The notes under the pieces are model-generated. The model saw nothing but the letters and a program-made list of their open reading frames with translations. It made no database searches and was not told the origin of the DNA. From the NCBI GenBank assembly GCA_036496425.1, contig DASXLG010000145.1, positions 1 to 36,948 of the forward strand: DNA of 36,948 bases, read 5' to 3'. Positions 33,062 through 36,948 of the stretch are shown one piece after another; the first letter of the stretch is position 1; every line of letters begins with the position of its first letter. This DNA is from Terriglobia bacterium (GTDB lineage Bacteria > Acidobacteriota > Terriglobia > 20CM-2-55-15). The position numbers and the translations under genes are program-made.

Positions 33062-33081
33062 ACGTCATTCGCGGCTAAAAA
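33062..33081. repeat. Solo arm resembling palindrome C
   Basis: ACGTCATTCGCGGCTAAAAA matches the right arm of palindrome C (27110-27129) at 17 of 20 positions. It contains the addA stop codon (33075-33077). No inverse partner is nearby. Confidence 0.5.
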
Positions 33082-36000
33082 GTACCCCAGCATCGTTCAC
33101 GGAAGCCGCACTCCACGCGGTCACAATAGCTCCGGTCTGCAGCGGGCCAGTCGTCACGATCGAGCGCCTCGAAATACCGCGAGAACAGTTTCCGCAACCG
33201 GCTTTCGGCTTCGTCACGTGCATACTCGCGGCGGATGATTTTCATCGGCGCTTTCAGATACCACAATTCTGCAACGGCGCGATCGGTTCCAAGCGCCTTC
33301 ATCAAGGCCAAACCATAAGCGGTCATCTGGATCTCGTAGGCCGTCTCGCCAGGCTCATGCCAGACCGCATACTTGTAATCGATGACGCGCGGGAGGTCTC
33401 CGCCGACAGCGGCGTCCATCCGTCCTCGAACCCAGCAATCTTTGCCATTGACGGGGAGATGCATGATGAACGGCAGCTCGCGTTCCGGATCCGCGGCTGC
33501 AAGTTCAAGCCAGGCCGAACTTTCGAATACATTTTCGAGGTCCGGAACGCCTGCCTCTTTGAGCACCGCGGCCGCCGGAGGTTTCACCGCCGTTTCGAGG
33601 AAGTTGTGGGCAATCGACCCAAGCTTCATTTGCGGCGTGTCTCCCGACGGTTCGCAGCCGGGTTCCGGTAAACCGAGGATGCGCGTCCAATGGAAGAACC
33701 GGAAGCAGCCGTTCAATGCGCCGAGATCGGAAGGAGTCATGTCCAGTTCCGGAACCGGCCGCGGCCCCGGCGGCCGGGGGATATCGGGCTCGGCGACAAG
33801 AATCGCGTCCGTTGCAAACGTAAGCTGCTCCGGCACATTCAATTGAGAAGCCGGCAGAACCTTGATCCAGAATCCTTTGAATCGCACAGTCTGAGATTTG
33901 CCGGCGCGGGCCGCAGCGATGGCCGCGGAGTTCACACTCTCGAAGACCTGGCCGATCCACTGCAGCCAGGGACCTCCCTGTTTTGAAAATCCTTCACCGA
34001 GGACCAGCATTTTTCTGGCGCGGGTGACGGCGACATAGAGCAGGCGTTTTTCTTCTTCATATTGCTGGTCGTCTTCCCAGCGCTTTTCCTGAAGCACCAG
34101 CGCGTGCGGCAGCGGTTTGCGGTGCAATCCATATGCAGCGCCGGCGAGCAGCCCCCAGCGGTCACTGAAGAACGTCCGCTCGCCGGAACTCCGGCCGGTG
34201 CGGGCCGCAAGATCCGGGATGATCACAATGTCGAATTCGAGCCCCTTCGCCTGATGAATGGTCAATACGCGCACCACTTCATCCGCCTGCGAAACGATCT
34301 GCGCTTCGGACTCCCGGACGCTGGTGTCGTGCGCGCGCTCGCGGAGATAGCGCACCACGTCGTCCAGCGCCGTCGTCCCCTGCCTGCCGAGTTCACGCGT
34401 GATCTCAATCAGCTTGCCGATATTGGCGGCACGCTGCGGCCCGTTTTTCTGCCCGATCATGACGGCGTCGAAATCTGTCCTGCGGATGATGTCCTGAAGG
34501 ATCTCGGCGGCAGTGGCGGTGTCGCGTTTGCCGGACCAATGAGAAAGCAACTCTTCGAAAAGATCCGGGGGCGCAGGCGAGACGCTGCCGGCCAGTTGCT
34601 GGAAGGTCATGCCGAAGAGCGAAGAGGTGAGAACTGTCGCGCGAAGGAGCTCATCGCCGGGACGCAGAACGAGTTCCAGAAACGCGATCAGATCGGAGAT
34701 TTCGGATTTCTGGTAGAACGCTGTGCCTTGCACGACGTAGACCGGAATCTCATGAGCTTCAAGGGCGGAAAGATAAACCTCGACGTTCGTCATCGCCCGC
34801 ATCAGGAGCGCGACCTCTCTCCAGGACCGGATCCGCCCGGAGGCTTTCCATTGTTTGAGGAGCCGTGCGATCGCTTCGGCCTCCATTTCGCGGCCTTTCG
34901 CCGCCTTCGCTCCTTCTTCAGCTGCAACGTAAGTAATGCCGAGGAATTCCGCCTCCGATTTCGGTTTCAATCGGTCGGCCTCGCTAAAACGGACGCGGTA
35001 TGAAAAATCGATGCCGCCTGGATCGGCGTCCATGACCTTGCCCCTGCCATCCATCATCCGGCTGCAAAGCTGGTTCGAAAATTCCACGATCGGGGCGGCG
35101 GAACGATAGTTGTCCTGCAAATGCTGGACATCGCCGCCTTCCTCGCGAATGCGGTTCAGCATCCGGAAGAACACAGTGACACGGGCCCGCCGGAATCGAT
35201 AGATCGATTGCTTGGGGTCGCCGACGATCATCAGTTTCTGCGGACTCAGGCGGCCGGGCTGCAGCGGATCCTCCGCGAGGAGCGAGATAATGTCCGCCTG
35301 TACCTCGTCCGTGTCCTGAAACTCGTCGACCAGCAAAGCCTGAAACCGATTCTGGTAATGCCGCCGGATCGTGTCGTCGTCTTTCAGGAGATTACGGACT
35401 GCCAGCAGAAGATCGTCGAAGTCCATGGCACCGGCGGCGCGCTTCTTCGTCCGGAATCTGCCGGTGGATAAAGCCACGAGGCTGGAGAGGCGTTCCGCCG
35501 CGGCAACACCTGCGATTTGTCCGACGCGCGGAAGCAGGGCATTCGGATCGTCCCGTTTGCGCAGAGCGTGCTTTGCTTTTCTGCCTTCGAGTTCGTCCGC
35601 GAGCTCGCCGACCTTCTGAAAATCGGCGCCGCCATAAGGACGAACCTCATCCGCGATCTCTTTCTCGATCTCCGCTGCGGCGCGTCGCTGATCTTCGATA
35701 CGCGACCTCAGCCAGTCTTCGCCGGCGCCGAGGCTGTTCAGCCAGTAGCCGGCTGACACGACAGTCTCCACCAGGCCTTCGAATCCAAAGTCGCCAAAGA
35801 GCTGTTCAACATCTTCGTTGCCGGAACGGATTTCCTGGCGGATTGTTTCACGGGCCGCCTCGCGAGCCAAGTCGAGACTTCGCTGTTCATCCAAAATGGT
35901 AAATCCGGGATCGATGCCGGCCCCGAAGCCGCGCTCGCGAAGAAGAATGCCGCAGAATCCGTGGATGGTGGAGATCGGCGCGACCGGCAAAAGCGCAATC

Positions 36001-36209
36001 GTTTTCATCCAGTGACCCGGCTTTGCGTAGAGCGCCGAACGGATTCTCTCTCGCATCTCCGCAGCGGCTTTCTCCGTGAAGGTGACGGCCGCGATGCGAA
36101 GAGGATCGCTTCCGCGTTCGAGCAGTTCGAGATACACCTCGACCAGCCGCCGGGTCTTGCCTGTACCCGCGCTGGCCAGGACAACCGTGTTTTTATCGAA
36201 CGTGCTCAT
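33075..36209 (-). CDS. addA: AddA-like helicase-nuclease (UvrD family, Fe-S nuclease)
   Basis: The 1044-residue enzyme is a SF1A helicase fused to a nuclease, the AddA/RecB type that resects double-strand breaks. Helicase motifs in order: Walker A ASAGTGKTRR, motif Ia VTFTEKAAAEMRER, motif II LLVDEFQDTDEVQ, motif III VGDPKQSIYRFRRA, motif V TIHQAKGLEFDIVIIPDL, motif VI LLYVAVTRARKML. The C-terminal PD-(D/E)XK nuclease shows GRMDAAV...VIDYKYA. A Cys in LNGCFRFFHW and the late Cys trio CDRVECGFRERCW would ligate a 4Fe-4S cluster, as in Fe-S-type AddB and Cas4-like nucleases. It is shorter than Bacillus AddA. ATG 36209 is only 7 nt from palindrome F and lacks a ribosome site. Confidence 0.92.
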   Translation of the reverse strand: MSTFDKNTVVLASAGTGKTRRLVEVYLELLERGSDPLRIAAVTFTEKAAAEMRERIRSALYAKPGHWMKTIALLPVAPISTIHGFCGILLRERGFGAGIDPGFTILDEQRSLDLAREAARETIRQEIRSGNEDVEQLFGDFGFEGLVETVVSAGYWLNSLGAGEDWLRSRIEDQRRAAAEIEKEIADEVRPYGGADFQKVGELADELEGRKAKHALRKRDDPNALLPRVGQIAGVAAAERLSSLVALSTGRFRTKKRAAGAMDFDDLLLAVRNLLKDDDTIRRHYQNRFQALLVDEFQDTDEVQADIISLLAEDPLQPGRLSPQKLMIVGDPKQSIYRFRRARVTVFFRMLNRIREEGGDVQHLQDNYRSAAPIVEFSNQLCSRMMDGRGKVMDADPGGIDFSYRVRFSEADRLKPKSEAEFLGITYVAAEEGAKAAKGREMEAEAIARLLKQWKASGRIRSWREVALLMRAMTNVEVYLSALEAHEIPVYVVQGTAFYQKSEISDLIAFLELVLRPGDELLRATVLTSSLFGMTFQQLAGSVSPAPPDLFEELLSHWSGKRDTATAAEILQDIIRRTDFDAVMIGQKNGPQRAANIGKLIEITRELGRQGTTALDDVVRYLRERAHDTSVRESEAQIVSQADEVVRVLTIHQAKGLEFDIVIIPDLAARTGRSSGERTFFSDRWGLLAGAAYGLHRKPLPHALVLQEKRWEDDQQYEEEKRLLYVAVTRARKMLVLGEGFSKQGGPWLQWIGQVFESVNSAAIAAARAGKSQTVRFKGFWIKVLPASQLNVPEQLTFATDAILVAEPDIPRPPGPRPVPELDMTPSDLGALNGCFRFFHWTRILGLPEPGCEPSGDTPQMKLGSIAHNFLETAVKPPAAAVLKEAGVPDLENVFESSAWLELAAADPERELPFIMHLPVNGKDCWVRGRMDAAVGGDLPRVIDYKYAVWHEPGETAYEIQMTAYGLALMKALGTDRAVAELWYLKAPMKIIRREYARDEAESRLRKLFSRYFEALDRDDWPAADRSYCDRVECGFRERCWGTF

Positions 36210-36216
36210 GGGCGAT

Positions 36217-36419
36217 GAGATGACAATCCCCGCCTTTCAAAGGCGGGGTGGCTGCGCCATTAACAAAATGGTCCGTTCCTTAGCGGCGCAGACGGGGCGG
36301 TTAGGAACTTCAACAAAATTAGGTGCGCTTCGCGGTTCGTTGATAACCGCCCCGCCCGATCGTTCTAACGTTTGATCGCTCGGGCACCCCGCCTTGGAAA
36401 GGCGGGGAATGTCCATCTC
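36217..36419. repeat. Palindrome F: multi-hairpin element between addB and addA
   Basis: The ends (36217-36250 and 36385-36419) are inverted copies, each also a hairpin by itself: CCCCGCCTTTCAAAGGCGGGG at 36228-36248 and a near-identical one at 36387-36407. Inside, GGGGCGGTTA (36294-36303) pairs with TAACCGCCCC (36344-36353), and a TGCGCC/GGCGCA pair brackets CCATT/AATGG. About 203 nt of nested stems, in the gap between two same-strand genes; no open frame inside. No transposase is present. Confidence 0.85.
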
Positions 36420-36439
36420 ATTGACTTTTCGTACAACTC

Positions 36440-36948
36440 TCATGTTCCATACAGCCGGCAGAGCCGGCGATAGTCACAGTTACTGCAGCCTTGCCGGTCC
36501 GCCGGATCGGGGGCGAGGCGGCCCTCCGCCACTTTCTCCACTAATTCTTCGATGCGGATCCGGACGTCCTCGAAGACGGCCGTATCGATCGCGTGCGAAA
36601 CAACAGGCGTGCCCGGAGAGCGCAGCAGCAGATATCGGCCTTCGATGCGCACGGCGGAATCGGCGCCAAGGGCGTTCGCCGCGAGATAGGCATATACCGG
36701 AATCTGGAAGGATTGCTTCAGCTGCTTCGTCGTCGCACTCGAGGCGGCCGAATATTTGAAATCATCGATCCGGAGCGCATCGATTTGTCCGCCCTCGCGG
36801 TGCACGGCAACGTGATCGGGTTTTCCGGCAAGCGTGACGCGGCCAATCGCCGCCGGCGGCAGAGGCGCGTCCAGCCAGGCGGGCTCGGTCTTGAAACCGG
36901 CTGCCGCATCGCGCACGGCAAACTCCACATACCGGTTCAGAACGCTGA
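36440..36948 (-). CDS. addB: AddB-like nuclease, C-terminal part (runs off right edge)
   Basis: The frame is open to the right edge, so the N-terminal helicase-like part is outside the window; 168 residues are visible. They form a PD-(D/E)XK nuclease of the RecB/AddB type: GKPDHVAVHREGG, IDDFKYSAASS (the D-x-K core), and QIPVYAYLAAN. The last residues CSNCDYRRLCRLYG hold three Cys for a 4Fe-4S cluster; the fourth Cys would be upstream, outside the window. It precedes addA on the same strand, as expected for the AddAB complex, but with a 230-nt gap filled by palindrome F instead of the usual tight coupling. Confidence 0.85.
   Translation of the reverse strand, partial: SVLNRYVEFAVRDAAAGFKTEPAWLDAPLPPAAIGRVTLAGKPDHVAVHREGGQIDALRIDDFKYSAASSATTKQLKQSFQIPVYAYLAANALGADSAVRIEGRYLLLRSPGTPVVSHAIDTAVFEDVRIRIEELVEKVAEGRLAPDPADRQGCSNCDYRRLCRLYGT

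Follow-up and report, generated by a model that had tools for sequence, protein, structure and literature searches.

A probable MITE-like repeat with a hairpin-closed core fills the addB-addA junction of a group-5 acidobacterium

The addB-addA gap and its flanking genes

The window analysed here is the whole stretch of 36,948 nucleotides from contig DASXLG010000145.1; its source genome (G000) is a draft of 6.16 Mb. Near one end lie an addB-like and an addA-like gene, and the whole gap from the addB stop to the addA ATG is an imperfect palindrome (Table 1). The addA-like product is a UvrD/RecB-type helicase with a C-terminal PD-(D/E)XK nuclease. Its orthologues in relatives share 64-74% identity, with alignments from residue 3, and it scores below the NCBIfam equivalog cut-offs. 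ATG 36209 is the only in-frame ATG, GTG or TTG upstream of the Walker A motif, which argues against a start elsewhere with a good ribosome site. An earlier note on this DNA had seen no ribosome site before this ATG, and a Shine-Dalgarno sequence is indeed absent there. With the same loose pattern, it is also absent at 10 of the 20 other gene starts tested in the window; as about half of the other checked genes do without one, its lack at ATG 36209 is not special. The genome contains a second AddA-like gene (G000:C89:11464-13974; a 1143-aa frame, 31% identity). Close orthologues of the AddAB-like pair in the window occur in only part of the family, and the pair thus looks like an additional helicase-nuclease.

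The earlier note had described a multi-hairpin element of about 203 nt in this gap, with inverted ends that are each a hairpin and with more stems inside. Sequence inspection and folding confirm such an element: two mutually inverted terminal hairpins, CCCCGCCTT...AAGGCGGGG, enclose three arms. Its placement in the gap was right, but the limits of 36217-36419 were too narrow, since alignment to the full-length family consensus extends frame sequence to ~36439 on the addB side and places a frame remnant from ~36211-36213 on the addA side. With a frame at one end and a truncated frame at the other, the window copy thus fills the whole gap. The RNA-folding check that had been proposed gave a minimum free energy of -117.4 kcal/mol compared to -71.7 +/- 4.4 for shuffles (z -10.3; 0 of 200 as good), and DNA folding gave a z of about -11 on either strand. 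The list of open reading frames holds none of at least 100 aa within 36211-36439, the element matches no curated Rfam family, and neither promoter-like nor terminator-like sites were found at it.

Table 1. Features at the addB-addA junction (window positions)
Feature	Position	Strand	Basis
addA-like gene, 1044 aa, intact, start ATG 36209	33075..36209	-	orthologue matches
CATGAG with addA start ATG; possible target-duplication remnant	36205..36210	-	
Whole mobile element (core + frame)	36211..36439	-	alignment to full-length family consensus
Truncated frame remnant, addA side, ATTGTC-ATCTCATCG; outer terminal-repeat end missing	36211..36227	-	consensus alignment
180-bp core with three inner arms between inverted terminal hairpins	36228..36407	-	
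Terminal hairpin 2, addA side, minus strand CCCCGCCTTTGAAAGGCGGGG	36228..36248		hairpin pattern
Inner arm C, CTGCGCC...GGCGCAG; best-conserved part in other species	36252..36291		sequence and fold
Inner arm B, GGGGCGGTT...AACCGCCCC	36294..36353		sequence and fold
Inner arm A, GCCCGAGCGATC...GATCGGGC	36354..36385		sequence and fold
Terminal hairpin 1, addB side, minus strand CCCCGCCTTTCCAAGGCGGGG	36387..36407		hairpin pattern genome-wide
Frame (terminal inverted repeat), addB side, minus strand (A)GAGTTGTACGAAAAGTCAATGAGATGGACATT	36408..36439	-	27/33 match to family frame
CATGAG with addB stop TGA; possible target-duplication remnant	36439..36444	-	
addB-like gene 3' end, PD-(D/E)XK nuclease domain, stop TGA 36440-36442, cut by contig end	36440..36948	-	

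A dispersed repeat family

A whole-element search, in which 40 candidates were scored, gave at least 40 copies in the source genome with identities of 77-93%, and the terminal hairpin pattern occurs there 146 times compared to 0 for a reversed control pattern. The gene context of 50 copies was determined with a simple codon-usage gene caller, which placed no copy inside a gene. Tandem genes flank 25 of the copies, convergent genes 14 and divergent genes 8; the other 3 are at contig ends. This extragenic placement fits ordinary MITE behaviour.

Among named relatives, group-5 Acidobacteria MAGs are the closest. Eight relatives of the same family contain matches, mostly cores with arm C and one hairpin in common. 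Among the four relatives whose elements were folded (G001, G004, G002 and G008), the palindrome is always closed by two inverted terminal hairpins; the three inner arms are kept in G001 and G004, and the inner fold differs in G002 and G008. Related cores in other genera sit in different flanks, and phage, plasmid and viral-contig collections gave no match to the element. In an RNAalifold consensus of the copies, covariation was not above that of shuffles. The five local hairpins contain 11 double-change cells, whereas shuffles average 3.8 and reach at most 8; this excess is small, and it comes from a count in which the relatedness of the copies is uncontrolled and one hairpin is partly misaligned.

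Core and frame

Two parts can be distinguished within the family. In the core (~180 bp), a pair of inverted hairpins closes off three arms, and in some copies the core is flanked by a frame, a ~33-bp terminal inverted repeat GGCTTTGCACAAAAAGTCGATGAGATGGACATT. Full-length copies have the frame (GGCTTTGCACAAAAAGTC...) at both ends; the window copy is truncated at one end. We compared the immediately flanking 9-mers of 19 framed elements from the source genome and five relatives. On average, 5.05 of the 9 positions match; shuffled pairs average 2.72, with 4.0 as the highest value in 1000 shuffles, and 9 of the 19 elements match at 7 or more positions. The signal vanishes when 8 bp are compared and is weaker at 10 bp. 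A clean 9-bp duplication, CTTGCAGTG, is found on either side of the L007 copy in the source genome. Judged by established transposon biology, the 9-bp duplications suggest that the frame acts as the termini of a DDE-type element would.

Most copies (33/49) lack the frame at both ends and show no target duplication; certain others retain the frame on one side only. Among the core-only copies are some with 93-95% core identity and flanks at random identity (e.g. L009 and L006, 95% to the core consensus), and good frames surround diverged cores (72-77%) in L258 and L262. Since the window copy served as the seed for the core consensus, its own 97% identity is biased. Simple decay fails to explain the split because near-consensus cores are unframed and diverged cores are well framed; the split does fit an independent spread of the core or a frequent loss of the frame. 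Inverted repeats of 8-13 nt flank 4 of 33 core-only copies (L014, L017, L025 and L235), where about 0.44 are expected.

The frame resembles the ends of IS903-type elements (IS5 family), with a terminal repeat beginning GGCTTTG and a 9-bp duplication. In the drafts of G000 and G008, PF01609 (DDE_Tnp_1) has no match, and no member was identified. In these draft genomes, we found neither a transposase locus with the frame at both ends among the loci examined nor an autonomous element with frame ends; as the genomes are drafts, the missing transposase is weak evidence. Candidates from the DDE families PF01609, PF00872 and PF05598 were rejected since none has matching ends, and PF13737 had no matches anywhere, the controls being silent too, which makes it uninformative. 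An IS1182-like gene in G004 was dismissed as parent, as its apparent adjoining frame motif has no inverted partner. In G006, a methyltransferase-like ORF lies between two inverted frame motifs ~975 bp apart (L180:180-1140); this pair has no target duplication and is perhaps due to chance.

The junction in relatives and a model of insertion

The comparison of addB-addA junctions proposed in the earlier note revealed an empty site in four relatives. The genes overlap by 11 nt in G002, are joined directly in G008 (TAG then ATG, 0 nt, with GGAGG upstream), and are separated by 2 nt in G004 and by about 25 nt in G003; loci L080, L083, L081 and L082 appear to be these same four junctions. The suspected displacement of a normal junction is thus borne out by the overlapping or near-abutting genes of the relatives, one of them with a ribosome site. 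In G005, the junction holds an unrelated palindromic repeat of 301 nt (L079:2044-2344), which occurs at ~40 places in that genome and at none in G000, G001 or G002. The element is therefore absent from this junction in five relatives, rather than being a structure that all of them share at the same place. The junction has thus received an insert on two occasions, and the repeats of G000 and G005 are unrelated. The G005 repeat includes the motif GGAAATGTCCAAACTCCAG, which is also found next to cores in G001. In G008, a frame motif of the element's family lies ~300 bp past the 3' end of addA (G008:C222:9455-9471).

CATGAG stands on either side of the window copy; given the obligatory stop and start codons, the chance of a shared 6-mer is about 0.026. 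The copy's own putative duplication comprises 6 bp only and is not exactly at the frame ends. These motifs are suggestive of an ancestor in which stop and start overlapped as ATGA, putatively ...GGAACATGAGCACG..., and of a duplication of this overlap when the element inserted there. The pre-insertion sequence is a reconstruction because the closest empty sites belong to species whose AddA is about 73% identical. A DDE transposase supplied in trans would have acted on the frame and inserted the element, probably at this overlap. Upon its duplication, addB would keep its stop and addA its start, and both genes would stay intact because the duplicated overlap supplies the two codons.

Discussion

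We conclude that the window element is very probably a copy of a non-autonomous MITE-like family that was amplified in a group-5 soil acidobacterium. The members are short (within about 70-300 bp), multi-copy and dispersed, and the window copy has no coding capacity. Full-length copies have terminal inverted repeats, of which the window copy has lost one end, and target duplications are of 9 bp in the framed class, putatively of 6 bp (CATGAG) in the window copy and absent from core-only copies. The suggestion of a passenger in the earlier note is thus upheld by the genome copies, the terminal repeats, the family's 9-bp duplications and the four empty sites. We found no earlier description of the family in an open-access literature library; in our judgement, the family is new, and the insertion is ordinary in kind and neat in form.

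Bacterial MITEs such as NEMIS, RUP and ERIC (listed in PMC3733652) share with the element a length of 70-300 bp, terminal repeats, an extragenic position and strong folding; unlike for bacterial MITEs in general, no parent IS was identified for it among the transposase families searched in the draft genomes. It is also GC-rich, whereas MITEs are typically AT-rich according to a review (PMC10969869). As described in PMC10969869, the Chunjie MITE of Geobacter uraniireducens has about 38 full copies (178-235 bp), of which one lies in an operon and the rest are intergenic, and the entry of MITEs into operons is thus known. By that description, the element is like Chunjie in being short and non-coding with terminal repeats; it differs in being another element, in having a three-armed core that also occurs unframed and in its insertion at a stop/start junction.

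The earlier note had also considered a PATE/IS605-like passenger. It is improbable that the element belongs to the REP/REPIN or IS200/IS605 (PATE) type and owes its movement to a Y1 (HUH) transposase. Terminal hairpins, core-only copies without target duplication and one Y1_Tnp gene in the genome (L031:1341-2181) are what this explanation has in its favour, but that gene, the only one found, has 30-bp inverted repeats of its own (AGGGGGCGCACACCTGAATTCC..., with a GGGG-rich start) that are unrelated to the element's ends, and the element's hairpins are not at its flanks. This RAYT-like gene was thus rejected as the mobiliser. IS605-type elements make no 9-bp target duplications, whereas the framed class has them; the combination of a Y1 gene with matching ends and no target duplication was thus not found. 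Furthermore, the palindrome is not accompanied by a GTAG or CGTC tag (the flanks read ACATT-CCCC...GGGG-AATGT), no tyrosine transposase gene is flanked by the same palindromes, and G001 (88% complete) has many frame motifs but no Y1_Tnp match. REP repeats and TIR-associated tyrosine transposases (TIRYT) have been reported in Acidobacteria, with REP repeats also in repair genes, including recBCD (PMC3733652). The element is like these REP repeats in being palindromic, dimeric, extragenic and from the same phylum, and the Y1 gene of the source genome is like TIRYT elements in its terminal inverted repeats (PMC3733652). In contrast to REP/TIRYT systems, however, the element lacks the tag and the Y1 gene has other terminal repeats.

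We regard it as very unlikely that the element is a cis-acting RNA that evolved to control the AddA level as an attenuator, RNase-processing hairpin or translational switch; some control of AddA levels had been entertained in the earlier note. Its fold is very stable, it sits at the addA start, and that region is mostly paired in the model; however, the same sequence adjoins dozens of unrelated genes, five relatives have junctions without it, and it has neither an Rfam match nor a terminator-like site. The MITE-like element is very probably tolerated rather than recruited, as one copy of a dispersed family and not a local regulator. Its insertion may still affect addA. The mRNA model predicts pairing for most of the bases that directly precede the ATG; the insertion would put a very stable structure that pairs much of the addA start region into the operon mRNA and would uncouple AddA translation from AddB. 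A loss of translational coupling is likely in this model because no Shine-Dalgarno sequence is seen and the start region is mostly paired, and a reduced AddA level is possible. A mild effect could be tolerated, since the genome holds another AddA-like gene and the window gene is itself only AddA-like.

Only the division into core and frame might go beyond an ordinary MITE insertion. That core and frame are two separate mobile units, with the core spreading alone by an unspecified mechanism and also riding in frames, is a real possibility that falls somewhat short of probable, and it refines rather than excludes the MITE-like explanation. Unframed cores at high identity with random flanks, diverged cores inside good frames and the different flanks of related cores in other genera point to two units, whereas one-sided frames and the possibility of frame loss through end deletion speak against them. 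More specifically, and only tentatively, we propose a two-tier system in which a three-armed cruciform core has two routes: it spreads independently, perhaps as single-stranded DNA and leaving no target duplication, and it also gets into unrelated terminal-repeat frames, whose movement by a DDE transposase makes 9-bp duplications. If confirmed, the split would be an unusual route of spread for a bacterial repeat.

The locus provides an example of a non-coding mobile repeat that enters a tight operon junction with neither gene broken, where both ends would come from duplication of the overlap. Unrelated repeats occupy this same junction in two sister species; the site thus tolerates insertion repeatedly.
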